Positions 1,810-14,125 of a stretch of 14,639 nt of DNA are shown here, piece after piece. Under the pieces are notes generated by a model. That model made no database searches and was not told where the DNA came from. It saw only the letters and a program-made list of their open reading frames with translations. The stretch is taken from contig CASEZU010000006.1 of assembly GCA_949292445.1 (NCBI GenBank), positions 1 through 14,639 on the forward strand, in the 5' to 3' direction. Numbering within the stretch: position 1 is the stretch's first letter; each line of letters opens with the position of its first letter. The position numbers and the translations under genes were made by a program. This stretch comes from an uncultured Spirochaetales bacterium (lineage in GTDB: Bacteria > Spirochaetota > Spirochaetia > Sphaerochaetales > Sphaerochaetaceae).

Positions 1810-2541
1810 TTATATCGCTGCATATAGTTCGCTGTAGCGGTTCTCCGGATCGGGTTCCACTGCTATGAACTCGGAGGAGAGTATCCTTTCTGCATCTTCC
1901 TTGAATGCATGCGCGAATTCTTCGACAACAGGACGGAGGATGCTTTCCTTTTCCTCCGCAGAGACTTTCTTCAGCAGAAGATGATCCGAAAGTCCGATCG
2001 GACGCTCCGTTGTGCGGAGGTATATCTTCCCGCTGTACATTCCGTTGCCGCAGAAGTATCCGGTGAGGGGAGCATTTTTCCTTTCGCCAAGTCCGAGCAC
2101 CACGATGGTTCCTCCTGCAAGATATTCCCCGAGGAAGCTGCCTGCGCGTCCGCCGATGACGAGGAGGGGGGACTTTTCCTTATAAGCCTTCATGTTCACG
2201 CCGGCCCTGTATCCGGCGCTTCCGTGCACGAAGAGCTTCCCGCCGCGCATTGCATAGCCGGCCGCATCTCCTATAGAACCGTCGATGTAGATACTGCCGC
2301 CGTTCATTGTGTCTCCGACTGCATCCTCGGCATTCCCGTCGACCCTGATCGTGCCGCTGTCCAGAAATGCCCCGAGAGCATTTCCCGGAGTGCCTATTAT
2401 CATGATACTGGCATCTTTCATGCCGCAGCCGATGTACCTCTGCCCGCAGCAGTTCCTTATCTCTATGGCCTGATGCCGCTCTTTCTTGACGATATCGCAG
2501 AGCTCGCGCTGCGACATTCCTCTGGCGTTGATGATCTCCAT
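1810..2541 (-). CDS. Glutamate synthase, GXGXG domain subunit (archaeal-type GltB3)
   Basis: This 243-residue protein is the detached C-terminal domain of the glutamate synthase large subunit, a right-handed beta-helix that scaffolds the synthase core. The repeating glycine turns are clear: GNALGAFLDSG (53-63), GDTMNGG (76-82), GYAMRGG (95-101) and GSFLGEYLAGG (134-144). A helical tail follows from about 190. I chose the ATG at 2541 because AGGAG lies 6 nt upstream and it follows the GltB2 stop by one base. Earlier in-frame ATGs (2589, 2556) fall inside the GltB2 gene. In classical bacteria this domain is fused to the rest of GltB. Here, as in methanogens and some deep-branching bacteria, it is separate. 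It is the last gene of the operon and presumably assembles with the two upstream products. Confidence 0.9.
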   Translation of the reverse strand: MEIINARGMSQRELCDIVKKERHQAIEIRNCCGQRYIGCGMKDASIMIIGTPGNALGAFLDSGTIRVDGNAEDAVGDTMNGGSIYIDGSIGDAAGYAMRGGKLFVHGSAGYRAGVNMKAYKEKSPLLVIGGRAGSFLGEYLAGGTIVVLGLGERKNAPLTGYFCGNGMYSGKIYLRTTERPIGLSDHLLLKKVSAEEKESILRPVVEEFAHAFKEDAERILSSEFIAVEPDPENRYSELYAAI

Positions 2542-2542
2542 G

Positions 2543-4054
2543 TCATTCTCCTGCATGCTTGATGCCAAGCACCTCAAGTTCCTTCGCATTGAGGCCCACG
2601 CCCCTCAGTGCGAGCCTGTTTCCGCGTAGTGCCTCGATCGAGTTGATTCCCATGCCTCCCATGATTTCCTCGATCTCCCTCTTCCATGCCCTGATGAGGC
2701 GGCAGAGCCTCTCCGCACCTTTCTCAGGATCGAGACGTTTCATCAGCTCCTCATCCTGGGTTGCAATGCCCCATGCGCATTTTCCTGACTGGCAGGAAGC
2801 GCAGAGGTGGCAGCCGAGTGCACAGAGCGCTGCTGTTCCGATCGATACAGCATCCGCCCCGAGGGCAATTGCCTTCGCGACATCGGCGGCATTTCTTATC
2901 GAGCCGGAGACTATGATGGATATCTGGCTTCTGATGTGCTCATCCCTGAGCCTCTGATCGACAGCTGCCAGCGCAAGCTCCACAGGAATGCCGACATTGT
3001 CTCTGATCCTTACCGGAGCCGCTCCTGTACCTCCGCGGAATCCGTCGATCTCGATGATGTCAGCACCGCTTCTGGCTATGCCGCTGGCTATCGGGGCGAT
3101 GTTGTGGACAGCTGCGACCTTTACGATCACGGGTTTTGTGTAGTTGGTCGCCTCCTTGATCATCGAGACAAGCTGCCTGAGATCCTCGATGGAGTAGATA
3201 TCATGGTGCGGGGCAGGGCTGATGGCATCGATTCCTTCCGGAACCATCCTTGTCTTCGCTATGTCTCCGCGTATCTTCGCACCTGTCAGATGCCCGCCGA
3301 TTCCTGGTTTTGCCCCCTGTCCGATTTTTATCTCCACGGCAGCTCCTGCCCTGAGATAATCCGGGTGGACACCGAAACGCCCTGACGCAACCTGCACGAT
3401 TGTGTTCTTCCCGTATTTGTAAAGCTCCTCGTGCAGTCCGCCTTCGCCGGTGTTCCAGTATGTGCCGAGCTCCTGAGAGGCCATCGCCAGTGCCCTGTGC
3501 ACATTGAGGCTCACAGCTCCATAGCTCATCGCTGAGAACATGATCGGCTCTTCCATCTCAAGATGCGGAGGAAGATTGTCTACCAAAGCGCCGTTCACAT
3601 CGCGGGCGATCTTCTCGGGCCTTCTTCCGATGAAAGTCGTTGTCTCCATCGGCTCCCTAAGCGGATCGATTGAGGGGTTTGTCACCTGGGATGCGTTGAG
3701 AAGCAGGCGCGGGAAGTATGACGGCACATCGTCCTTGGAAGCGCCCATTGACTGCAGCAGCACGCCTCCTGTCTCTGCCTGACGGAAGATCTCATTCATT
3801 GCATCCTCGGTCCATGCCGAGTTCGGGTGCATGATGTTCGGATTCAGCGTTATTGACAGGGCATCCACCGGGCAGAAGACAACACAGCGCTGGCAGTCAA
3901 CGCACTTGGAGCTGTCTGCTTTCATCACCTTCCTCTTCTCATCCCATGAGTGCACGCCGAATGAGCATTCCTCTATGCATTTCCTGCAGTTCACGCATTC
4001 CGGACTTCTCACGACGCGGAATCTGGGCTGTATTACTGAACCGTTCCTGATCAT
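2543..4054 (-). CDS. Glutamate synthase core subunit with N-terminal ferredoxin domain (archaeal-type GltB2)
   Basis: This 503-residue protein is the FMN- and iron-sulfur-containing synthase part that condenses 2-oxoglutarate with ammonia and reduces the imine to glutamate. The N-terminus carries two 4Fe-4S motifs: Cys20/23/26/30 and Cys51/54/57/61. The FMN barrel follows, with MSYGAVS (176-182), GEGG (203-206), GQGAKPGIGGHL (245-256) and ISPAPHHDIYS (278-288). A phosphate-binding GSIRNAADVAKA (384-395) precedes a cysteine cluster (411, 415, 418, 421, 426) expected to hold the 3Fe-4S centre. The start ATG overlaps the GltB1 stop (ATGA) and has a G-rich binding site. No GltD gene is adjacent, so electrons may come from ferredoxin through the N-terminal clusters or from an NADPH subunit encoded elsewhere; this is inference. 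Confidence 0.93.
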   Translation of the reverse strand: MIRNGSVIQPRFRVVRSPECVNCRKCIEECSFGVHSWDEKRKVMKADSSKCVDCQRCVVFCPVDALSITLNPNIMHPNSAWTEDAMNEIFRQAETGGVLLQSMGASKDDVPSYFPRLLLNASQVTNPSIDPLREPMETTTFIGRRPEKIARDVNGALVDNLPPHLEMEEPIMFSAMSYGAVSLNVHRALAMASQELGTYWNTGEGGLHEELYKYGKNTIVQVASGRFGVHPDYLRAGAAVEIKIGQGAKPGIGGHLTGAKIRGDIAKTRMVPEGIDAISPAPHHDIYSIEDLRQLVSMIKEATNYTKPVIVKVAAVHNIAPIASGIARSGADIIEIDGFRGGTGAAPVRIRDNVGIPVELALAAVDQRLRDEHIRSQISIIVSGSIRNAADVAKAIALGADAVSIGTAALCALGCHLCASCQSGKCAWGIATQDEELMKRLDPEKGAERLCRLIRAWKREIEEIMGGMGINSIEALRGNRLALRGVGLNAKELEVLGIKHAGE

Positions 4055-5142
4055 GCGTTCACCCCCTCGTCAAGATGTACAATGACAGGCTCTCCGCCGC
4101 GGGGAGCGTATATTGAGTCGAGCTCTGGCTCTATTGTCCTGATAGCGGCTTCCTCGCTTGCGAAATAGACAGTGCGTCCTTTCTCGCCCACAACGAGGCT
4201 CCGCAGCTTGAGGCGGTCGTTGAGCCCCATCATGCCGCCCCTGAAACCGACGAGTATCGAAAAGGGGCCTGTGATGAGGAATTCGCTGAACATCTTCCTC
4301 AGATAGGCCAGTTTCCTGCCTTCAGTCTCTCCTTTGAGGGAAATTGTCTTCCAGAAAGGTGCGGCGATGACGCTTGCAGCTTCCTCGAGTGTCAGATGCA
4401 CGCGGCGGGTGAGGTAATCCAGGACATATGTGATGACCTCTGTGTCTGTCAGGAGCGTGCAGTTGTATCCGTACATCTCCACGGCTCTCCTGTTGGCGTC
4501 GTATGAGGATATCTCCCCGTTGTGGACAACAGAAAGATCGAGAAGGGCGAACGGATGAGAGCCTCCCCACCAGCCTGGAGTATTGGTCGGATAGCGTCCG
4601 TGAGCAGTCCATGAGTAGCCTTCGTATTCCTCAAGCCTGTAGAAGTCTGCGACATCCTCCGGGTAGCCTACGGCCTTGAATACACCCATGTTCTTGCCGC
4701 ATGAAAAAACATAGCAGCCCTTGATCGTGCTGTTTATGTTTATGACGGAACGCACAACATACTCCTCTTCATCGAGGTGGCTGTCGGCGAGGCGGTGGGG
4801 CAGCGGCGTGACGAAGTACCTCCAGATAAGAGGCGCGTCCGTTATCCTGGGATTCGGGCGGGTAGGGATCTTTGAGAGGTTAATGATGTCGAAGGTGGCA
4901 TCGAGCCTTCTTTCGCATTCCTCCCTTGCCGCCATATCATCATAGAAGATATGCATGGCGTAGTATTCCCTGTACTGAGGATATATTCCGTAGCCGGCAA
5001 AACCTCCGCCGAGGCCGTTCGATCTCTCGTGCATCACGCGTATCGAGTCGCGGATGCTCCTTCCGCTTATCCTGCGGCCATCCCTGGCGAAGATGCCTGC
5101 TATGGCACAGCCTGACGGTATCCTGACTTCTCCTTCCCTCAT
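4051..5142 (-). CDS. Glutamate synthase glutaminase subunit, class II amidotransferase (archaeal-type GltB1)
   Basis: This 363-residue protein is the separate glutaminase domain of glutamate synthase. It hydrolyses glutamine and supplies ammonia to the core subunit. Class II amidotransferase landmarks are Cys12 in SGCAIAGIF, HGRYPTNTP (181-189), HNGEISSY (207-214), TDTEV (232-236) and ASEEAAIR (328-335). The nucleophile must be N-terminal, so 11 residues have to be removed, as with the propeptide of classical GltB. I chose the ATG at 5142 because AAGGAG lies 7 nt upstream. The longer in-frame start at 5196 lies inside a strong leader hairpin and adds 18 unrelated residues. It is the first gene of the operon, with a promoter and terminator-like hairpin upstream suggesting attenuation. 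The stop overlaps the next start by 4 nt. Confidence 0.9.
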   Translation of the reverse strand: MREGEVRIPSGCAIAGIFARDGRRISGRSIRDSIRVMHERSNGLGGGFAGYGIYPQYREYYAMHIFYDDMAAREECERRLDATFDIINLSKIPTRPNPRITDAPLIWRYFVTPLPHRLADSHLDEEEYVVRSVININSTIKGCYVFSCGKNMGVFKAVGYPEDVADFYRLEEYEGYSWTAHGRYPTNTPGWWGGSHPFALLDLSVVHNGEISSYDANRRAVEMYGYNCTLLTDTEVITYVLDYLTRRVHLTLEEAASVIAAPFWKTISLKGETEGRKLAYLRKMFSEFLITGPFSILVGFRGGMMGLNDRLKLRSLVVGEKGRTVYFASEEAAIRTIEPELDSIYAPRGGEPVIVHLDEGVNA

Positions 5143-5162
5143 AATCAGCTCCTTGAAGGACG

Positions 5163-5209
5163 AAAAAAAGGCGTCATGGGAGGGGTGACCTCTCATGAAC
5201 GCCTTTGTC
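5163..5209 (-). promoter_or_regulatory. Leader hairpin of the glt operon: terminator-like attenuator
   Basis: Read on the - strand, GACAAAGGCGT opens a 40-nt hairpin (5206-5167) whose outer stem AAAGGCG/CGCCTTT continues through TCATG/CATGA and GAGG/CCTC, with one bulge and one mismatch. It ends in seven T. This has the form of an intrinsic terminator, but it lies between a promoter (5219-5248) and the glt start codon, 24 nt upstream of the ATG. That makes premature termination or a 5' stabiliser the natural readings. A leader with the same 11-nt opening precedes asnB. No leader peptide or classical riboswitch core is visible. Confidence 0.7.
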
Positions 5210-5578: not shown

Positions 5579-6121
5579 ATGAAGAAACTCTTCGCTGTTC
5601 TTGTTGCATCAATGATGCTCTTCGTCCTTTTCGGATGCCAGAGCACGGAAGCTCCTGTCGCAACGACGGAGATCATCGCTCCCGCTCCTGTAGAGCCAGT
5701 TCCGGCTCCAGCACCGGCACCTGCTCCAGCTCCCGAACCGGCACCGGCTCCGGAACCTGCTGCTGAGGAGACAGCGGCACCCGAAGAGGCAGTTCCCGCT
5801 GATGTGAATGAGGACGTTGTCACGGCAGAGTATGAGTATCTCGGACACAAGCTCTCGATAGAGGCAGGCGACGGCAAGGCTGTCCTTTCCTATCCTGACT
5901 GGGTGACAGAGGATGATGTCGCAGCATTCTTCGCAGCAGAAGTTGCTAAGTACAGCGCAGAGCTCGATGGCGTGATGTATATGTTCACGGAACCCGGCAC
6001 AGTGGAGATCGCTTATCCCGCAGGTGTTTCCAGCGATGTCCGCACAGCATACATCGATACATTCGTCGCAGATCTTCTTGCATATGTGGAGGGTTTCGAC
6101 ATCCAGCCCGCTTCCGTATAA
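5579..6121 (+). CDS. Lipoprotein with Pro/Ala spacer and one copy of a novel repeat domain
   Basis: This 180-residue protein begins MKKLFAVLVASMM and has a lipobox ending FG-C with Cys20, so it should be lipidated and anchored in a membrane facing the periplasm or outside. Residues 33-70 are a Pro/Ala/Glu spacer with PAPAPAPAPAPEP-type repeats. Residues about 81-172 form one copy of a domain that occurs four times in the downstream 1029-aa protein. It is most like that protein's first copy: YEYLGHKLSIEA, SYP, DVAAFF, AYPAGVS and DLLAYV all align. I predict beta-beta-alpha-beta-beta-alpha. I recognise no known family. I chose the ATG at 5579 because of GGAGG 6 nt upstream and the signal peptide; the ORF's earlier ATG at 5525 adds a non-signal extension. 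A strong terminator follows, so it is not in one unit with the next gene. Confidence 0.85.
   Translation: MKKLFAVLVASMMLFVLFGCQSTEAPVATTEIIAPAPVEPVPAPAPAPAPAPEPAPAPEPAAEETAAPEEAVPADVNEDVVTAEYEYLGHKLSIEAGDGKAVLSYPDWVTEDDVAAFFAAEVAKYSAELDGVMYMFTEPGTVEIAYPAGVSSDVRTAYIDTFVADLLAYVEGFDIQPASV
5696..5758 (+). repeat. Pro-Ala-coding microrepeat in the lipoprotein spacer
   Basis: Residues 40-60 of the 180-aa lipoprotein are a run of Pro-Ala and Glu-Pro-Ala units encoded by near-repeated CCNGCN hexamers such as CCGGCACC and CCAGCTCC. It gives an extended, flexible arm between the lipid anchor and the folded domain. The synonymous codons vary, so it is not a perfect DNA tandem repeat, but length change by recombination is possible. 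Confidence 0.7.
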
Positions 6122-6140
6122 GAGTGAATGCGGCATGCAG

Positions 6141-6171
6141 TCCCCGATGAGACCCATCGGGGATTTTTTTT
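6141..6171 (+). terminator. Intrinsic terminator after the 180-aa lipoprotein gene
   Basis: A perfect 9-bp stem (6141-6149 with 6155-6163) with a 5-nt loop is followed by eight T (6164-6171). It is a strong rho-independent terminator 19 nt after the stop codon. Confidence 0.95.
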
Positions 6172-6254
6172 CGTTCCCGAGCCTTCATTTTCCTATCCCG
6201 CAGTCTCTGGCTGTGCTAGCATTTGCATAGAAATCAACAATATAGGAGGGGAAC

Positions 6255-9200
6255 GTGAAACGCTTTTCAGGAAATATTCTGATCCTGCTGCTTGCACTTC
6301 TTCTGACATTTACAGCCGCTGCCTGCCAGAGCTCCGCTTCAGATGCTGTGGCGGAAGATGTACAGATTCAGGCTGCTCCGGAGGCAGAGGAGATTGCTGT
6401 TCCGGCTGCTGAGGAGACAGCTGAAGAGGCAGTTTCTGCCGAGACGGAGAGCGCTGAGACACCGGTTTCCGTCACATATGAGTACATGGGGCATGAGCTT
6501 CTGATTGAGGCCTATGACGGATACGCGCTGATAAGCTATCCTGCGGCAGCATCTGAGAGCGAAGTGGGGGCATTCCTTTCCTCAGAGGCTGAACGGTACG
6601 GTATAACGGATGTGACGTACTCATTCACAGGCCCGGGAAGCCTCAGGCTGGACTATCCTGCGGGGATCAGCGCGGAGGAGAGGAAGGAAGCCGCAGATAC
6701 CCTCGCTTCCGATCTTATGATCTATGTGACGCCAGTGCCGGAGATCGAGCCTGAGACAGCGGTCACGACGGCCTATGCATATGATGGTTATAAGCTTTCG
6801 GCCACGATAGGGGATGGCCGTACTGTCATAAGCTATCCGGAGTTCATTGCAGATGCGGACGTGGAAGGTTTCTTTGCTTTCGAGAATGCGAAGAATGACT
6901 TTGCCTCGCTTGGAGTGAAGTACACGCTCTCAGGACCAGGAACCGCTGTCCTCACATATCCGTCCGCATATACAAAGGAGGAGGTGAAAGCCGAGCTGGA
7001 CAGGATCGTCTCAGATCTCACCGCTTATATTGCGGTGGTGCCGGCTGCTGTTCCGGCGCCTGTCGAGAGCGTGGATACTGTCATCAGCGAAGTATACAGC
7101 TATAACGGCTATACGCTCTCTGCTGTCATAACCGATGGCCGCACTGTCCTTAATTATCCGAAGACGGTATCGGATGAGGATGTGGTGCAGTTCTTTGCAC
7201 TGGAGAATGAGAGATACGGCTACAGCAGTCTTGGCGTTGTCTATACGATCGAGGAGCCGGGAGTTACAGTGTTTGAATACCCTGAATCCATCGTGCCGGC
7301 AGCTGTCGCTTCAGAGCTGGATAAGCTCGTCTCCGATCTCATCGTCTATATAACACCAGCCCCTAAGGCTGTCTCAGTGACAATGCCGGAACCGGCAGTG
7401 GAGCCTGCAGAGGAACCTGTGGCTGAAGAGCCAGCTGTTGCTGAAGAGCCCATAGTCCGCACATACAGATATGCAGGTTTCGAGCTTACAGCAGAGATAG
7501 CCACTGGAACGACAGTGATCGATTATCCTGCAGTGACAACTGATGATGAGGTGAATACCTTCTTCGCCATTGAGAATGAGAAGTACGGCCTAGGCGATCT
7601 CGGCGTATATTACACGCTTGAGGAAGACGGCAAGGCAGTCTTCACATATCCTGAGGAGTACAGCAAGGAGACAGTTGCGGCCGAGCTTGATATGCTTGTC
7701 GATGATCTCATCGTCTACATCACGACGCCGGCTCCGGAAACTGCAGCTGCAGAACCGGTAGAGACGGATAAGGAAGAAATGGCAGAGCCTGCTCCGACAG
7801 CATCTTCCCTGCCAGAGGATCCCGTGTCCTATCCCTTCGGTGTCGAACCGATCGTGAAGGCCAGCGGTGATGAAGATGGCTTTAATCTCTATATAGTCCA
7901 CACGAATGATGTGCACGGGCGCATAACAGCCGGAGAGTATGGCAGCATGGGCTATGCCAAGCTCAGCACGCTCCTTGACATGGCAAGGTCAGTCACTTCC
8001 GACATCCTTCTTCTTGACGGAGGCGATACGCTTCACGGGACGAATCTGGCCAATATGTTCGAAGGACAGACTGTGCTGGAGATAATGGATGCTGTCGGAT
8101 ACGATGCGATGGTTCCCGGGAACCATGATTTCAACTACGGTTCGGACCGCCTCCTCGAGGCTGCAAGATGGGCAGAGGACAATGCCTCATTCCGCATCCT
8201 CAGCGCCAATATAACCGATGAGGAAGGATATCTCCTGCTGCAGCCGTATCAGATCTATGATTACAATGGTTTCAAGGTCTGTGTGATAGGACTGACAACA
8301 CCTGACACAAAGACGAAGTCCCATCCTGCGAACACTGTCGGAATCGAGTTCATGAACGAGGCTGTCATTGACAATGCCCAGGCAGCGCTCGATATTGCCA
8401 ACGATCTTGCTGACTTTGTCATCGTTCTCGGTCACATCGGTATTGTTCCAGATGGGGACACCGGCATCACATCCGAGCTGATCTGCCAGAGCTTGGACGG
8501 CATTGACCTCTTCATCGATGCCCACAGCCACACTGTCATGGACGGAGGGGAGATGGTGAACGGCACCCTGATTGTCTCCACCGGGCAGTATATGAACAAC
8601 CTTGGCATTGTCCCTGTTGAAGTCGATGCAGCCGGAAATGCTGAGATAGGAGATGCATTCCTTCTTCCCGCATCAGAGGTGCTCGATCCCTCGACAGGCA
8701 CGCTCCTGCAGTCATTGGGCATAACGGAAGTGCCTGATGACCCTGCAATCGATGCATATGTTGAGGCCAAGCAGGCGGAGCTTGATGAGATGCTCGGCGA
8801 GGTTGTCGCAAGAATACCGGTGAGCCTCAACGGAGAGAGGGAGGATGTGAGGACGAAGAAGACGAATCTCTCCGCACTTATCTGCGAGGCCATGACAGCC
8901 GAGAGCGGTGCTGACTTCACGATCATCAACGGCGGCGGCATCAGGGCTTCCCTTGAGGCCGGTGATGTCACGCTCGGGGATATCAACAATGTGCTTCCGT
9001 TCACGAACATCATAACGGTGTGCGAGATAACTCCTGCCGATGTCTATGCGGCGCTGGAACATGGCTATTCTCTGCTTCCCGAGCAGAACGGAGCATTCTC
9101 GCAGACAGATCTCAAGGTTGTTTACTCAGCCTCAGCTCCTGCAGGAGAGAGAATAAGGCGCGTATATTTCGGGGACACTCTTCTTGACAGGAATGACAAT

Positions 9201-9344
9201 GAGACTGTCTACCGTGTGGCTTCCAACGACTTCATGGCAGCCGGCGGTGACGGATATACGATGTTCGGCCGTGTGCTTTCCGAGGGCGGCATGCTCAACG
9301 AGGTTTTCTGCGATTATCTTTCAAAACTTTATCCTGTGAAGTGA
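6255..9344 (+). CDS. Lipoprotein 5'-nucleotidase (UshA-like) with four N-terminal repeat domains
   Basis: This 1029-residue protein has a signal peptide and lipobox (AAA-C, Cys24), then an acidic Ala/Glu-rich linker (25-70). Four tandem copies of an unrecognised ~90-residue domain follow at about 72-162, 170-262, 277-370 and 400-490. A second linker leads to a complete metallophosphoesterase/5'-nucleotidase module. Metal-site motifs are NDVHGR (551-556), DGGD (588-591), GNHDF (622-626), LGHIG (725-729) and DAHSHT (755-760). The C-terminal substrate domain shows NGGGIRASL (892-900) and ASNDFMAAGGDGY (989-1001). It would hydrolyse extracellular nucleotides, UDP-sugars or cyclic nucleotides for salvage. 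The start is GTG at 6255 with GGAGGGG 3 nt upstream. An extended -10-like TGCTAGCAT lies about 30-40 nt upstream. Typical UshA-family proteins have about 500-550 residues, so the repeat half is an addition, perhaps a binding arm. Confidence 0.9.
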   Translation: MKRFSGNILILLLALLLTFTAAACQSSASDAVAEDVQIQAAPEAEEIAVPAAEETAEEAVSAETESAETPVSVTYEYMGHELLIEAYDGYALISYPAAASESEVGAFLSSEAERYGITDVTYSFTGPGSLRLDYPAGISAEERKEAADTLASDLMIYVTPVPEIEPETAVTTAYAYDGYKLSATIGDGRTVISYPEFIADADVEGFFAFENAKNDFASLGVKYTLSGPGTAVLTYPSAYTKEEVKAELDRIVSDLTAYIAVVPAAVPAPVESVDTVISEVYSYNGYTLSAVITDGRTVLNYPKTVSDEDVVQFFALENERYGYSSLGVVYTIEEPGVTVFEYPESIVPAAVASELDKLVSDLIVYITPAPKAVSVTMPEPAVEPAEEPVAEEPAVAEEPIVRTYRYAGFELTAEIATGTTVIDYPAVTTDDEVNTFFAIENEKYGLGDLGVYYTLEEDGKAVFTYPEEYSKETVAAELDMLVDDLIVYITTPAPETAAAEPVETDKEEMAEPAPTASSLPEDPVSYPFGVEPIVKASGDEDGFNLYIVHTNDVHGRITAGEYGSMGYAKLSTLLDMARSVTSDILLLDGGDTLHGTNLANMFEGQTVLEIMDAVGYDAMVPGNHDFNYGSDRLLEAARWAEDNASFRILSANITDEEGYLLLQPYQIYDYNGFKVCVIGLTTPDTKTKSHPANTVGIEFMNEAVIDNAQAALDIANDLADFVIVLGHIGIVPDGDTGITSELICQSLDGIDLFIDAHSHTVMDGGEMVNGTLIVSTGQYMNNLGIVPVEVDAAGNAEIGDAFLLPASEVLDPSTGTLLQSLGITEVPDDPAIDAYVEAKQAELDEMLGEVVARIPVSLNGEREDVRTKKTNLSALICEAMTAESGADFTIINGGGIRASLEAGDVTLGDINNVLPFTNIITVCEITPADVYAALEHGYSLLPEQNGAFSQTDLKVVYSASAPAGERIRRVYFGDTLLDRNDNETVYRVASNDFMAAGGDGYTMFGRVLSEGGMLNEVFCDYLSKLYPVK
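6468..7724 (+). repeat. Four tandem copies of a novel ~90-aa extracellular domain
   Basis: Within the nucleotidase lipoprotein, copies at residues 72-162, 170-262, 277-370 and 400-490 share Y-x-Y-x-G, L, a DG or TG turn, then (I/L)-x-YP. Next come an acidic helix with (D/E)V-x-x-F(F/L)-x-x-E, a Y-(S/T) strand with a G turn, a second YP, and a closing helix with DL-x-x-Y(I/V). Copies 2-4 resemble each other most, for example DGRTVISYP against DGRTVLNYP. Copy 1 is closest to the single domain of the upstream 180-aa lipoprotein. Copies 1-2 and 2-3 are separated by short Pro-containing linkers, and copies 3-4 by a longer Glu/Pro/Ala linker. Confidence 0.88.
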
Positions 9345-9453: not shown

Positions 9454-11049
9454 ATGTGCACTGTATTCGGATATAATGGCTCGGCCCTGTCTGCGGAGAA
9501 GGTGAAGGCAGCTCTGGAGAAGACCGTATCACGCGGTCCAGATATGGAGAGGATCATGATGCTGCCGGAGGGAGATGGCTTTCTTGCTTTCCAGCGCCTG
9601 GCGATCATGGGACTCGACGAGAGCGGCATGCAGCCTTTCGTCAGCGGTCAGGATGCTGTTGTGTGCAATGGCGAGATATATGGATTCTGGACCATAAGGG
9701 AAGAGCTGAGGAAGAGGGGATATAAGTTTGTCTCAGGTTCAGACTGCGAGGTTTTGCTGCCTCTCTGGCGCGAATATGGAGAGAAGATGTTTGCCATGCT
9801 GGATGCGGAGTATGCGATGATACTCTACGATTCGGCTTCCCATTCGTTTGTCGCCGCGCGCGATCCCATAGGTATCCGTCCGCTGTTCTATGGTTATGCG
9901 CCGGAAGGCGGCATTTTCTTCGCCAGCGAGGCGAGGATGCTGATGGGCCTTGTCGACCATGTGATTCCGTTTCCTCCGGGAACATATTACAGGAACGGAG
10001 AGTTCCATCGTTACAGGGATATCGCGGGACACGAAGGCGATTATATCAGGGACAGCATTGAGACAATCACGGCGAGCATACGCACAAGGCTTGAGAAGGC
10101 CGTGGAGAAGAGGCTTGACTCGGATGCGCCGCTTGGCTTCCTCCTCTCCGGAGGGCTCGACAGTTCGCTCGTCTGCTCGATAGCCGCTTCCAAGCTGTCG
10201 CGGCCGATCAGGACATTCGCAATCGGCATGGAGAAGGATGCCATAGACCTCAAATATGCGAAGGAGACCGCTGATTACCTCGGAGCGGATCATACTGAGG
10301 TCTATATGACTCCCCGCGATGTGATCGGGGCGCTGGAAGAGGTCATATACTGCCTCGGCACCTATGATATAACAACGATCAGGGCCAGCATGGGCATGTT
10401 CCTTCTATGCAGGGCGATACATGAGCGTTCGGATGTCCGCGTGCTTCTGACGGGAGAGGTGTCCGATGAGCTTTTCGGCTACAAGTACACTGACTTCGCC
10501 CCGTCGCCTGAGGAGTTCCAGAAGGAGAGCGAGAAGAGGGTGCGGGAGCTTTATGCCTATGACGTGCTCCGTGCCGACCGCTGCATCGCTGACAACAGCA
10601 TTGAAGCCAGAGTGCCTTTCGGAGATCTGGATTTTGTCTCTTATGTCATGAGCATAGATCCGGCTGTGAAGATGAACACCTACGGAAAGGGCAAGTACCT
10701 GTTAAGAAAGGCATTTGATGACGGCAGGACGCTTCCTGACAACATTCTCTGGAGGGAGAAAGCGGCGTTCAGCGATGCCGTGGGGCATTCAATGGTCGAT
10801 GACCTCAAGGCGTATGCACATGAGGTATACGGAGGGCAGGACTGGCAGGCGATGTGTGCCCAGTACCCGGAGGAGGGAAGGCCGTTTACTGAGGAGTCGC
10901 TCCTGTACCGCACGATATTCGAGAAGTATTACCCGGGCCAGAGCGCGATGATTCCCGGATTCTGGATGCCGAACAGGACCTGGAAGGGCTGTGATGTGTC
11001 TGATCCGTCAGCCAGAGTCCTGTCAAACTATGGCGCCAGCGGTATCTGA
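9454..11049 (+). CDS. asnB: Asparagine synthetase B, glutamine-hydrolysing
   Basis: This 531-residue protein makes asparagine from aspartate, ATP and glutamine. The N-terminal class II amidotransferase domain starts MC, giving Cys2 as nucleophile once Met is removed. It continues with RLAIMG (48-53), NGEIYGFW (72-79), GSDCE (95-99) and RDPIGIRPLFYG (136-147). The synthetase domain carries the PP-loop LSGGLDSS (231-238), TYDITTIRAS (303-312), GEVSDE (334-339, where E. coli AsnB has GEGSDE) and ARVPF (385-389). Length is close to the E. coli enzyme (554 aa). The ATG at 9454 is preceded by AGGAGGG and puts Cys at position 2. The ORF's earlier ATG at 9352 would bury that Cys and run through the leader hairpin. 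The leader hairpin links its control to the glt operon. No terminator separates it from the next gene. Confidence 0.95.
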   Translation: MCTVFGYNGSALSAEKVKAALEKTVSRGPDMERIMMLPEGDGFLAFQRLAIMGLDESGMQPFVSGQDAVVCNGEIYGFWTIREELRKRGYKFVSGSDCEVLLPLWREYGEKMFAMLDAEYAMILYDSASHSFVAARDPIGIRPLFYGYAPEGGIFFASEARMLMGLVDHVIPFPPGTYYRNGEFHRYRDIAGHEGDYIRDSIETITASIRTRLEKAVEKRLDSDAPLGFLLSGGLDSSLVCSIAASKLSRPIRTFAIGMEKDAIDLKYAKETADYLGADHTEVYMTPRDVIGALEEVIYCLGTYDITTIRASMGMFLLCRAIHERSDVRVLLTGEVSDELFGYKYTDFAPSPEEFQKESEKRVRELYAYDVLRADRCIADNSIEARVPFGDLDFVSYVMSIDPAVKMNTYGKGKYLLRKAFDDGRTLPDNILWREKAAFSDAVGHSMVDDLKAYAHEVYGGQDWQAMCAQYPEEGRPFTEESLLYRTIFEKYYPGQSAMIPGFWMPNRTWKGCDVSDPSARVLSNYGASGI

Positions 11050-11101
11050 TGGCGTTTATCACAGTGCTATGCTATCCTTACCTTATCGAGGGAGGAGAGT
11101 T

Positions 11102-12379
11102 ATGTCGGAAAAGAAGGATGACGAAGAGAAATTCCATGAAATAGACGACGACAGATTCGATGATGCTGACAACCGTTACTTCCATTTCAGGAATGAGGAG
11201 AGTGACGGTTCCGATGACGGCCTTCCCTATCTTCCCGAGATGGATGACTCCTTCATGGAGTTTACAGATATGGTCGGCGGCATCTTCGACATGGTCATAT
11301 CCCTCCTGCCTGCGGATATGCAGGAGTACGGCATGACTGCCCTGGATGCGGTCATAGCAGCTGGAAGCGGCAATCCCTCCGCATCCAACAGGATGCTCAA
11401 GGCGCTCAGAAAGATGGCGGAGGATGGAGGGAAGGACTCTCCCGGGATTTTCCTGATGGAGGCCCGGAATTACAAGTCAATGGTCATCAATGCGCTCAGC
11501 ACCGGTTCCGGCACTGTGGAGAAACTCCTGAAGAAGGAGAAGAAGGCTCTTGAGGCGTATATCAGCTATTACGATAAGGCTGATACCTTCGATGATTTCG
11601 ATGAGTACCTCTTCGCCAGGGCGGAGAGGGCCCGTGTGCGCCAGATGCTCGGTGAGCAGAAGGGCGTATTCACTGCCACACTGGAGATCCCCGACGGCAG
11701 TGTCTTTGACATGGATGATCTTCTTGATGCGCTCAATGAGTTCTATGAACCCTCGGAGGATGATGACTATACGGATACGTCATTCGTTTTCCTTTCCGGT
11801 CCGGGGAATGTGGTGCAGATAGAGTACAGCGATCCCGCGATAGTCACGGAGCTCCTGTCGTCAGTACCGCTGGGGCTGAGAGAGAAAATGGATGCGGGTG
11901 CATTCCCCGGAAACGGGGTGGTCACGATCACGATTGATTCCGGCAAGGACATAACATCTGCCGCTGTGGATATGCAGCAGGTGCTTGCTGCTGTCTATTC
12001 TCTCTATCCTGATACTCCGATTGTCACTTTGAATTCCACTGTCGTGCAGCCAGAGCTGATGCCTGTGTTGCTGGAGGACACGAGGTCGAACATGTTCTGT
12101 GAGCTGGTGCTTCTGCAGATCCTCTGTGAGGGGGATGAGGAGAACGCCATTCTCAGGAGCCATACGGCTTCCGCCTGGGGAAGGCCGGACATTGGAATAA
12201 GGATGAATGAGACCACTCTTGAGCCGTTTGCCGTCGTCGGTGTCGCTCTTGACAGGCATCTCCGGCGCACCATCAAGGCCGGTGATCATATCGAGATAGA
12301 GGGGCACACATTCAAGGCTGCTCAGCACAAGGCCGGAGATGATGATATAATCATCCTAATGGAGAAGAAGAATGGCTGA
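11102..12379 (+). CDS. Unknown cytoplasmic acidic protein, first of a paralogous pair (425 aa)
   Basis: This protein has no signal peptide or membrane segment. Residues 1-55 are very rich in Asp and Glu and probably disordered. A helical region follows: LLPADMQEY (68-76), GIFLMEARNYKS (115-126) and a charged helix at 138-158. Then come LGEQKGVFTATLEIPDG (183-199), a mixed alpha/beta part with VVTITIDSGKDITSAAVD (273-290), and a C-terminal GDHIEIEGHTF (394-404). The LLP, KGVF-to-P-G, DI-alpha-helix and (I/F)xIxGxT(F/Y) landmarks recur in order in the next gene, so the two are paralogs. I recognise no family. I chose the ATG at 11102 because GGAGGAGAG lies just upstream; the longer in-frame start at 10991 overlaps asnB. 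The 52-nt gap after asnB holds no clear promoter or terminator, so it may be co-transcribed. Its stop overlaps the next start by 8 nt. Confidence 0.8.
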   Translation: MSEKKDDEEKFHEIDDDRFDDADNRYFHFRNEESDGSDDGLPYLPEMDDSFMEFTDMVGGIFDMVISLLPADMQEYGMTALDAVIAAGSGNPSASNRMLKALRKMAEDGGKDSPGIFLMEARNYKSMVINALSTGSGTVEKLLKKEKKALEAYISYYDKADTFDDFDEYLFARAERARVRQMLGEQKGVFTATLEIPDGSVFDMDDLLDALNEFYEPSEDDDYTDTSFVFLSGPGNVVQIEYSDPAIVTELLSSVPLGLREKMDAGAFPGNGVVTITIDSGKDITSAAVDMQQVLAAVYSLYPDTPIVTLNSTVVQPELMPVLLEDTRSNMFCELVLLQILCEGDEENAILRSHTASAWGRPDIGIRMNETTLEPFAVVGVALDRHLRRTIKAGDHIEIEGHTFKAAQHKAGDDDIIILMEKKNG

Positions 12380-13403
12380 AAAAACGTTTGCACCAGAAGA
12401 TACTCTGCGCATCGCATCAGCGATGGCTGCGGAGACAGTTGATCTCCTTCCTGATGGAATGAAGGAAGCGGTTTCCACCGCGTTCCAGGCCGTCATGCTC
12501 AGCCACGGGGGAATGTATGAGAAGTCTCAGGAGAAGATCCGCAGACTCAGAAATATCTCATACTCCAGAGAGCCGTACTGCGACATACTCAGTGCGAAGA
12601 ATGAATATGAGATGGCGGAGCGGCTGACAGCATCGGATCCCGATCAGGCCCGGCATTTCTCGAGGGCGAGGGCCGCTCTTTCCTCGTATCTCTCATCAGA
12701 TATATCGAAGCGTTCCGAAGAGGAGGTGCTTGAGGCGAGGCTTATGAAAGCCCGTGCTGATTACATCCTCGGACACCGCAAGGGCGTTTTCATGGGAATA
12801 GTGGAGCTTCCAGAGGGGGCTGAAGCTGACAGTGATTCCCTCGGCAGCATAAAGGTCCGCGGCCTGCATGCAGCGGTGCACCACGAAAACGGCGTCATTT
12901 TCACCAGGGGAGAGGGCAGCATTTTCGCAGCGTCCCTTGAGGAACCGGAAATGATGGTGGTAGCAGCTGTATCGCTCGGCGATGACATAATGGAGACAGC
13001 TGAACGGTTCATCCGCCTCACAGCAGCAGTCATGGAGACCTTCGCAGCCTCGTCGTTCTATATAAACGGGGTGATGCTGTCTCATGATGATGTGAATGAG
13101 GCGATCACGGATATGGCGGAGGATGCCTTCCCCGTCTGGTTCTTTGCCAGAGGTTCGGAGGGAATGGAGGATGACAGAATAGTTCTCTCCGCAGAGGGTG
13201 CTGAGAGTTTCGGAGCAAAGGCGATAAGGATCGTCGGAGTTGCACCGGAGGACAGGGAGGAAGCCTCCAGTGCGCTTTCGCTGATTCTTGTCTACCATGT
13301 GTATTCCGCCTCGGCGCGTCGTTCCAGGACTTTTACTATAAACGGAAGGACTTATACGCTTGCCTCTTCCGACAGAGTCAGCGTATCTTACACGATGGCA
13401 TGA
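12372..13403 (+). CDS. Unknown cytoplasmic protein, second of a paralogous pair (343 aa)
   Basis: This 343-residue protein is a shorter, diverged paralog of its upstream neighbour, lacking the acidic N-terminal tail. Shared landmarks in the same order are VDLLPDGMKEA (23-33), a helix-rich part with a Ser/Ala/Arg helix at 95-110, and LGHRKGVFMGIVELPEG (133-149). These are followed by GDDIMETAERF (203-213) leading into a strand FYINGV (229-234), and RTFTINGRTYTLAS (319-332) near the C-terminus. No signal peptide, membrane segment or catalytic motif is apparent. The start ATG overlaps the upstream stop by 8 nt (ATGGCTGA) with GGAGAAG just upstream, and its stop overlaps the next start (ATGA), so it is translationally coupled on both sides. 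The two paralogs may form a heteromer. The function is unknown. Confidence 0.8.
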   Translation: MAEKTFAPEDTLRIASAMAAETVDLLPDGMKEAVSTAFQAVMLSHGGMYEKSQEKIRRLRNISYSREPYCDILSAKNEYEMAERLTASDPDQARHFSRARAALSSYLSSDISKRSEEEVLEARLMKARADYILGHRKGVFMGIVELPEGAEADSDSLGSIKVRGLHAAVHHENGVIFTRGEGSIFAASLEEPEMMVVAAVSLGDDIMETAERFIRLTAAVMETFAASSFYINGVMLSHDDVNEAITDMAEDAFPVWFFARGSEGMEDDRIVLSAEGAESFGAKAIRIVGVAPEDREEASSALSLILVYHVYSASARRSRTFTINGRTYTLASSDRVSVSYTMA

Positions 13404-14125
13404 GCAGCAAGATGATATTCTCCGGCTCCCTGTACAGTTATCTGGGCGGGACAGCTTCGGAGAAGGCTATACGCACATATTCCTCCGAATGGATAAGCGG
13501 CAATCTGGCATACCTCGAGAATGGCGGGGTCAGGATGATTCCGTGGAAGGATGATCCTCGACGTCCGTTCTTCAGGGAGTGCCTGCCAGAGGATATTTAC
13601 CAGGCATTCCTGCTGAAGGCGGCCTCAGCTGTGGCCGGCATGCCGATGCTGAGCCGCATCCCGCATGGATTCAGGAGCCGCCGGCATCCGCTTGTGATGA
13701 AGGTGGCCAAGTCAGGGGACATGATCTGGGAGAAGACGCTTTTCTCAGTGCTCTTCGTCCCTTCTCCTGATATGTTCACATACCGGACGTCCCTTCCAGA
13801 CATCGGTGATCTCCTCGCTTCATCCACTGCGGCGCTCGCGGAGCTTCTTGACCGCATAAATGCAAGGAGCTGGAATGCGTCCCTGTATGACATAGTCTCG
13901 TGGAGCGATGAGTCCAAGGAAGAGGGAAGAAAGGTGATGGCTGCGCTCGTTCCAGACAGCGACGGCACGATAAGCGGAGAGGAGGCGGCCATGTACGCGT
14001 ATTCCGTTCTTTACAGGGCCCTGATCTTCTCACGCTCAGGAGGCACGCCGCTCATCATCGGAAGGGAGGATAGGAATTATGGAAGAATACAGAAGAGAAG
14101 AGGAGATAGAGAGGAGGGGAAGTGA
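13400..14125 (+). CDS. Unknown protein in the paralog operon (241 aa)
   Basis: This 241-residue protein shows no signal peptide, clear membrane helix or known catalytic motif. Its features are a Trp/Tyr-containing N-terminus (LYSYLGG, EWISGNLAYLENGGVRMIPW), a basic stretch GFRSRRHP (90-97), a hydrophobic strand LFSVLFVP (114-121), an Ala/Leu-rich helix at 137-155 and a second helix at 193-210. The tail (222-241) is highly charged. That tail coincides with the overlap with the next gene, so its sequence may be shaped by two reading frames. The start overlaps the preceding stop by 4 nt, which argues for coupled translation and a joint role with the paralogous pair. I recognise no family. The ATG at 13400 is the only sensible start. 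Confidence 0.75.
   Translation: MSSKMIFSGSLYSYLGGTASEKAIRTYSSEWISGNLAYLENGGVRMIPWKDDPRRPFFRECLPEDIYQAFLLKAASAVAGMPMLSRIPHGFRSRRHPLVMKVAKSGDMIWEKTLFSVLFVPSPDMFTYRTSLPDIGDLLASSTAALAELLDRINARSWNASLYDIVSWSDESKEEGRKVMAALVPDSDGTISGEEAAMYAYSVLYRALIFSRSGGTPLIIGREDRNYGRIQKRRGDREEGK

Follow-up and report, generated by a model that had tools for sequence, protein, structure and literature searches.

An acidic alpha/beta domain shared by a 5'-nucleotidase and other envelope proteins of spirochaetes: a candidate docking module

What is the repeated unit of about 90 residues that occurs once in a small lipoprotein and four times ahead of a 5'-nucleotidase in the next gene, and what does it do in the cell envelope? 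The question is raised by contig CASEZU010000006.1 (assembly GCA_949292445.1) of an uncultured Spirochaetales bacterium (Sphaerochaetaceae), whose 14,639 nt are called the window here. We describe the unit as a new alpha/beta domain of the envelope, acidic and specific to its lineage, that moves from gene to gene and is joined to its carriers by Pro/Ala/Glu-rich linkers, a description either observed directly or following from the architectures of its carriers. We hypothesize here, at a probability of about 0.38, that it serves as a mobile docking module of the envelope. The two genes are arranged as follows; unit limits and bit scores come from a profile built on these same five units.

5579..6121, + strand: small lipoprotein gene with one unit (180 aa; lipobox read in the sequence; 11 homologues)
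5822..6094, + strand: unit S (aa 82-172; profile match 138 bits)
6255..9344, + strand: 5'-nucleotidase lipoprotein gene (1029 aa, GTG start)
6468..6734, + strand: unit 1 (aa 72-160; profile match 122 bits)
6765..7037, + strand: unit 2 (aa 171-261; profile match 135 bits)
7086..7358, + strand: unit 3 (aa 278-368; profile match 135 bits; modelled as window 7080-7370)
7359..7454, + strand: Pro/Ala/Glu linker preceding unit 4, its end also common to the homologue P0007
7455..7727, + strand: unit 4 (aa 401-491; profile match 136 bits; 92% identity to unit 2 of P0007)
7893..9269, + strand: Metallophos (PF00149, aa 547-760, E 5.8e-11) and 5_nucleotid_C (PF02872, aa 851-1005, E 2.3e-32)

The original prediction, made from the DNA letters, had described five copies of one unit, and the profile recovered one plus four with limits at most two residues away from those first given. 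Identity in the ten pairwise comparisons among the five units was 33-55%, with z from 19 to 40 (500 shuffles each). The motifs Y-x-Y-x-G, both YP and D-L-x-x-Y, as first described, are invariant across the five, whereas the helix motif once read as V-x-x-F-x-x-E is really one residue longer (V-x-x-F-x-x-x-E). The claim that each protein has its own lipid anchor agrees with a lipobox seen by eye in both, LFGC-QS in the small lipoprotein (Cys residue 20) and AAAC-QS in the nucleotidase (Cys residue 24), so that both are predicted bacterial lipoproteins with a signal peptide and a lipobox cysteine. Copy 1 is indeed closest to the single-unit protein, though narrowly (45%, score 202, compared with 42% and 188 for copy 2).

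The enzyme part exceeds the Pfam cut-offs for both Metallophos (43.6 versus 21.5 bits) and 5_nucleotid_C (112.7 versus 23.6 bits). The motifs ND.HG, GD, GNHD, GH and HSH show no variation among 19 aligned proteins and correspond in the window to N551 D552 H554, G590 D591, G622-D625, G726 H727 and H757 H759; we take NDxH, GD, GNHD, GH and HxH to be the metal-site motifs of UshA-type 5'-nucleotidases. Because these motifs are invariant and both domains lie above cut-off, the window protein is probably an active 5'-nucleotidase. It has PF00149, PF02872 and the metal-site motifs in common with the UshA/Nt5e type, from which its family differs in having 1-10 units as an N-terminal arm, which is lipid-anchored in the window. 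No curated NCBIfam cut-off is reached by the window nucleotidase.

That the domain had no name was confirmed by profile and family searches: no Pfam or NCBIfam model covers the unit, either in scans of the window proteins or, for Pfam, in 20 units scanned singly, and OmpA, LysM, SPOR and PASTA models are absent among the 11 families listed at E <= 1 for these single units. The units are strongly acidic, with a negative net charge in 209/210 units (mean -11.0). In another collection of units from the loci, those of <25 bits or <80 residues were left out and 249 were thinned to 88. Positions G10, G20, Y26, P27, F38, Y55, P68 and D86 are kept in >=90% of 93 alignment rows. By hhalign the two halves of the 93-row profile are related: the part running from strand 2 into helix 1 matches that from strand 4 into helix 2 over 28 columns (probability 95.9; E 5.5e-9, counted as one comparison). 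The two YP motifs thus appear to be one motif present twice, and because its halves align, the unit seems to have arisen by an old duplication of a beta-beta-YP-alpha piece.

An AlphaFold2 model of a 97-residue stretch around unit 3, based on the 93-row alignment, gave a mean pLDDT of 94.6 and a pTM of 0.83, and the compact fold expected by the original prediction was thus borne out in the model. DSSP places strands at 2-8, 11-18 and 21-25, a helix at 32-46, strands at 54-59 and 62-66 and a helix at 73-91, from which a compact alpha/beta fold of the order beta3-alpha-beta2-alpha is predicted with confidence. The comparison with known folds that had been proposed at the outset matched no solved structure with confidence (Foldseek with the unit model; no E below 1e-3), and secretion chaperones, with an E of 0.022 at best, were among its top rows.

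A few short matches to named families were found. The whole homologue P0009 lies above the cut-offs for aRib PF18938 (29.6 versus 27) and DUF6484 PF20093 (28.0 versus 27.6), and protein database entries give MIC5 (PF21496) on P0009 and P0010 as well as aRib and DUF6484 on P0009; on the window nucleotidase MIC5 stays below its cut-off (19.1 versus 27, aa 284-313). The best stretches of these three models span 21-30 residues and none passes the cut-off alone. Two of the 20 single units match MIC5 (best E 3.9e-5) and two match aRib (best E 0.08). A full-length match of the unit to the aRib domain by itself was not found, the best stretch covering 20/71 model positions. What the unit and these three families have in common is a short helix-plus-hairpin motif ending in YP; the unit is alpha/beta in the model, whereas Rib domains are all-beta. 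The helix and beta-hairpin YP motif, also seen between P0009 and the adhesin chain 6vs7_A, may reflect chance, convergence or old kinship.

Which proteins carry the unit? A search with the repeat region of the large protein as query found 55 homologues, among which P0003 is 100% identical to the window nucleotidase over this region and 9/55 have no listed nucleotidase domain (P0007, P0009, P0010, P0021, P0022, P0025, P0051, P0053, P0056). A contig scan with one sequence pattern gave 23 loci, all from metagenome-assembled genomes (MAGs) of spirochaetes, namely two Candidatus Ornithospirochaeta species and otherwise uncultured Spirochaetaceae or Spirochaetales. The initial view of the unit as an arm peculiar to the nucleotidase proved too narrow: no fewer than eight kinds of envelope protein carry it, either on the N- or on the C-terminal side of the carrier domain:

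Carrier A: small lipoproteins with 1-2 units
Carrier B: nucleotidases, which have 1-5 units except for L130 with ten
Carrier C: secreted proteins that have a weak fn3-like domain and 1-5 units together with a barrel-like C-terminus, whose last residues are GFTF or GFSF
Carrier D: L014, L063, L131, L132 and L141, of 1230-1591 aa, with an N-terminal domain without assignment, 1-5 units and a long C-terminal part
Carrier E: the TRAP permease DctM of L068 (DctM E 1.1e-109; single example) with two C-terminal units
Carrier F: L010, L017 and L020, with an N-terminal hydrophobic anchor, a helical-looking region and 1-2 units
Carrier G: FKBP_N/FKBP_C isomerases L034 and L067 (FKBP_C E 3.9e-20 and 8.4e-19) with one C-terminal unit
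Carrier H: L055-L057 and L059, with 1-3 divergent units and a barrel-like end
Carrier I: L054, L058, L143, L147 and L156, anchored, with one unit and a barrel-like end

The barrels are predicted ones. A Pfam check of 13 proteins, whole or in part, gave three sub-cut-off matches to OMP_b-brl (P0021, E 5.4e-4; L056, 1.3e-5; L008, 4.1e-5) and none in the other ten, among them L059, the second carrier H protein scanned. By a rough, home-made score in which Tyr and Trp were counted as apolar, period-2 amphipathicity was raised in 9/9 barrel-like stretches (z 3.4-5.3) and not in three controls (z 0.1-0.4), and Phe is the last residue in 8/9 of these stretches. In carrier D the C-terminal part was barrel-like in L014 and L063, the two tested; Pfam found no match in the first ~200 residues of L014 and its relatives, and the name 'FecR-like' for this part was dropped. 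The fn3 label is weak (E 3.3e-4 to 0.084, below cut-off).

Where the location of a carrier can be told, its units lie on the periplasmic side. Two genes precede the permease gene of L068, one of the size of DctQ and the other with a signal peptide like that of a receptor. Because both ends of the TRAP M subunit are at the outer face of the inner membrane (N-out/C-out) according to PMC9971032, the units on this DctM should be periplasmic by analogy. The loop ahead of its last predicted membrane segment has three basic residues and one acidic residue, which is weakly consistent with this topology, in a crude scan that found 9 of 12 expected segments. Units placed ahead of a C-terminal barrel would be periplasmic by the usual insertion rule. 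FKBP_N isomerases are periplasmic proteins.

The original prediction had explained the arrangement by gene duplication followed by internal expansion and fusion to the enzyme, and this covers a part of the story. In a comparison of closest units (units of <15 bits or <75 residues dropped, carriers labelled by text rules, 24/210 units left as 'OTHER'), window units 1, 2 and 3 were nearest to units of other nucleotidases, with best identities of 71, 71 and 64% and the same position each time. Unit 4, by contrast, resembles units 2 and 3 of P0007, a barrel-like protein, at 92% and 91% identity, the linker being shared as well; next comes a barrel unit of L001 (73%). Because unit 4 is common to a nucleotidase and a barrel-like protein at 92%, the comparison points to units passing between genes, in one direction or the other. 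Whole units also differ between close relatives (five in P0005 and four in P0011; four in P0018 and three in P0023), and the copy number ahead of the nucleotidase ranges from 1 to 10; assembly collapse of repeats may explain some of these differences.

The units are also retained where the enzyme is gone. At L002 (genome G001) and L048 (G011) the gene after the small lipoprotein encodes a four-unit lipoprotein without the enzyme, and tblastn found no nucleotidase in the 11,780 bases of L002 or the 3,267 bases of L048. The genes next in line, three in L002 and one in L048, resemble by their opening residues those at window 10991-14125, the one in L048 being like the first of them. These are three adjoining genes on the + strand (462, 343 and 241 aa), none with a Pfam match above cut-off. 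A unit gene lies <=2.5 kb upstream in 23/33 nucleotidase frames, several of which are the same gene in overlapping loci; in L041 and L152 the upstream gene is perhaps a piece of the same broken gene. The remaining 10/33 comprise eight that start near the end of the locus, and L088 and L150, which are without an upstream unit gene. At L029/L041 (G013:C56) one stop codon breaks the nucleotidase frame after the fourth unit, and the enzyme part resumes downstream.

How far does the domain reach? At E <= 1e-3 unit matches were found in 69/139 genomes of the order of G001, which we take to be GTDB Sphaerochaetales. Each of the 59 genomes of this order with a transpeptidase has exactly one match to it, which fits that identity; PMC4423922 reports the same count for Sphaerochaeta coccoides. 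In a phylum sample of 392 genomes, which includes genomes of this order and was searched with alignment A5, 17 genomes match and all 17 belong to the order. Of 7,997 candidates scored in a whole-database search with the small lipoproteins, 47 were matches, the only named one being from a Spirochaetes MAG. A set of 14 genomes, picked because the contig scan had matched them, have 5-14 unit matches each. Because a unit match lies within about 420 bases of a contig end in 10/23 loci (L001, L011, L012, L013, L015, L016, L019, L021-L023), the assemblies probably under-count units. Present in about half of the sampled genomes of the order, the unit offers an entry point for annotating otherwise unrelated envelope proteins.

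The number of units was set against the genes for peptidoglycan (PG) synthesis in the same 139 genomes, MAGs without completeness figures. At E <= 1e-3, the PF00905 transpeptidase was found in 59, mraY in 63 (13 above the curated cut-off) and the Mur ligase PF01225 in 66; all three occur in 57/139 and none in 72/139. Genomes with none are called PG- and those with at least one PG+ (by a single marker in G017, G122 and G133). As a control, FtsZ was found in 134/139, FtsW/SEDS in 132/139 and Omp85 in 26/27 tested, and on account of these three the genomes of the order are diderms with a division cluster. In the one pair of genomes compared, the gene order in G027 (PG+) is mraZ, rsmH, a short gene, murF, mraY, ftsW, ftsQ, ftsA and ftsZ; in G009 (PG-) it is mraZ, rsmH, ftsW, an ftsQ-like position, ftsA and ftsZ, with murF and mraY gone. 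In G009, Pfam scans covered rsmH, ftsW, ftsA and the ftsQ position; in G027 they covered murF, mraY, ftsQ and the transpeptidase. The names of the other genes come from family search, appearance or position. The ftsQ match was just below cut-off in G027 and missing in G009. A MurG match of E 7e-67 or better was present in 8/8 PG+ and 0/19 PG- genomes tested, 12/19 of the latter giving only weak matches (7e-8 or worse). L126 and L128 are the two loci to compare for this.

FtsW is kept in most PG- genomes in a divergent form (best E 3e-45), and LysM was found in 27/27 genomes tested, 19 of them PG-. We therefore speak of no detectable synthesis genes rather than of no wall, and some glycan may exist. 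According to a preprint (PMC12236494), murABCDEFGJ and mraY are inferred in the last spirochaete ancestor, because of which the absence of PG genes would be a loss. In an FtsZ tree of 109 genomes the PG- genomes form two separate groups. The first (support 0.99) takes in G133, with one Mur ligase match, and adjoins PG+ genomes with 2-3 units; the second has a support of 1.00 together with G017, G018 and G020, and otherwise 0.22, with PG+ genomes carrying 1-6 units nearby. Given these two groups and the unit-bearing PG+ genomes near each, there were at least two PG-gene losses if the tree is right, and the unit is probably older than them. G017, G018 and G020 have kept mraY (G018 and G020 also Mur ligases), the PF00905 transpeptidase was not found in them, and they are possibly in a half-way state of PG loss. 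The PG state of the window's own genome is deduced from its relatives. Neither this domain nor PG-gene loss in this lineage was described in the literature searched, which comprised titles and abstract openings, with most subscription papers outside its coverage.

By raw genome counts that ignore kinship, units occur in 47/72 PG- and 22/67 PG+ genomes, and seven or more units in 19/72 PG- and 0/67 PG+ genomes. The unit is absent from 25/72 PG- genomes and, because these include 13/14 genomes of one PG- subclade, it is not obligatory there. The simple idea that the unit replaces peptidoglycan is weakened by the 22 PG+ genomes with units and the 25 PG- genomes without.

For the unit as a docking module we propose that the copies on lipoproteins, barrel-like proteins, inner-membrane proteins (the TRAP permease and the anchored helical proteins) and soluble FKBP isomerases would bind each other or one common periplasmic partner. 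Docking would hold the carriers together in the periplasm, and tandem copies would give added reach and avidity. In the window, a 5'-nucleotidase that scavenges nucleotides would be tied into the network together with its companion, the lipoprotein with one unit. In favour of docking are the presence of one unit type at either end of the carrier domain on at least eight kinds of carrier, the periplasmic side of the units wherever it can be told, and their retention in the G001 and G011 loci without the enzyme. The sharing of unit 4 at 92%, linker included, would be expected if one partner selects all copies. Also counted in its favour are the copy number of 1-10 ahead of the nucleotidase, the unit gene close upstream of 23/33 nucleotidase frames, the 5-14 matches in each of the 14 genomes picked through the contig scan, and the confidently predicted fold.

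Several observations weigh against docking. Neither a partner nor a binding site for the unit emerged from the analysis, and the majority of its conserved positions (G, Y, P, F, L) seem to serve the structure. Given their strong negative charge, units would repel each other on direct contact without the help of cations or of a basic partner. The two window lipoproteins may lie on either face of the membrane and could be surface-exposed; the TRAP fusion comes from one genome alone, and 70/139 genomes of the order have no unit match. It is quite improbable, in our estimate, that the units form a periplasmic protein network tying the outer membrane to inner-membrane proteins in spirochaetes with two membranes that have lost PG, partly standing in for the mechanical or organising role of the wall, with a module that predates the loss and afterwards multiplied and reached new carriers. 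The module is a candidate part of the answer to how two membranes cohere without a wall, or at least a marker of such envelopes.

The original prediction had also considered a stalk, and units and Pro/Ala/Glu linkers may together act as a long stalk or acidic brush that binds nothing and keeps the carrier domain at a set distance from its membrane. A copy number of 1-10 and the acidity of both linkers and units would suit such a spacer, but the single-unit small lipoproteins, the C-terminal units of the FKBP isomerases and those at the DctM end hold nothing away, and the eight near-invariant positions also speak against it, unless folding alone keeps them; we consider this rather unlikely. Peptidoglycan binding, another of the functions first suggested, is disfavoured. 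Each unit would here grip a periplasmic polymer, like OmpA or LysM domains, and the architectures (lipoprotein, linker and domain; barrel plus periplasmic domain) resemble those of Pal and OmpA; an OmpA domain was found in just 1/139 genomes of the order. The LysM matches in 19/19 PG- genomes tested and the divergent FtsW leave room for some glycan, and 22/67 PG+ genomes carry units. However, none of the 19 genomes in which seven or more units occur has a match to PF00905, mraY or PF01225, the PG- genomes tested have no strong MurG, the units are strongly acidic, and OmpA and LysM models are unmatched, which makes glycan binding unlikely. OmpA/Pal, LysM, SPOR and PASTA are also small repeatable modules on lipoproteins, barrels and enzymes; the unit differs in having turned up in one order only and in reaching its highest copy numbers in genomes without detectable PG genes.

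A chaperone-like unit would hold on to envelope proteins in extended form while they are exported or barrels are assembled. Its beta3-alpha-beta2-alpha order by DSSP is that of the core of type III secretion chaperones, which supplied 10 of the top 50 Foldseek rows (E 0.02-0.55; best 1xkp_C, E 0.022, prob 0.84; others 4gf3_A, 3kxy, 1k3s and 1jyo_A), and the unit is fused to FKBP isomerases, one of them with a sub-cut-off BamJ match (77.1 versus 100 bits). The Foldseek matches are not significant, though, with a query TM of 0.35-0.44, and the permease and nucleotidase fusions do not fit. The chaperone N-terminal helix alpha1 is missing as well: the modelled stretch starts one residue before the first strand, and in a full-length model the region between residue 22 and residue 71, where unit 1 has its first strand, is free of helix, as are the inter-unit linkers, these partly at low confidence. 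Unlike these chaperones, the unit is tandem, extracytoplasmic and often lipid-anchored, no sequence link between them was seen, and we hold a chaperone-like role to be improbable. Lower still stands the reading of the unit as an adhesin or variable repeat on the cell surface, in contact with host ligands, which we regard as very unlikely. At least the Ornithospirochaeta relatives presumably come from animal guts, copy number changes and units are exchanged between genes, and the helix-hairpin motif is common to 6vs7_A (PDB), an adhesin that we take to be streptococcal. Nevertheless, that match is of ~50 residues and weak per stretch, and the TRAP permease end is periplasmic, as are the FKBP_N isomerases. 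PMC8035907 is a paper on the chicken gut.

Elsewhere in the window, a glutamate synthase split into three genes occupies 1810-5196 on the - strand, and there is a tRNA gene on the + strand:

4051-5196, - strand: glutamate synthase amidotransferase (Pfam)
2543-4054, - strand: glutamate synthase ferredoxin plus FMN domain (Pfam)
1810-2589, - strand: glutamate synthase GXGXG domain (Pfam)
1566-1639, + strand: tRNA-Thr (TGT)

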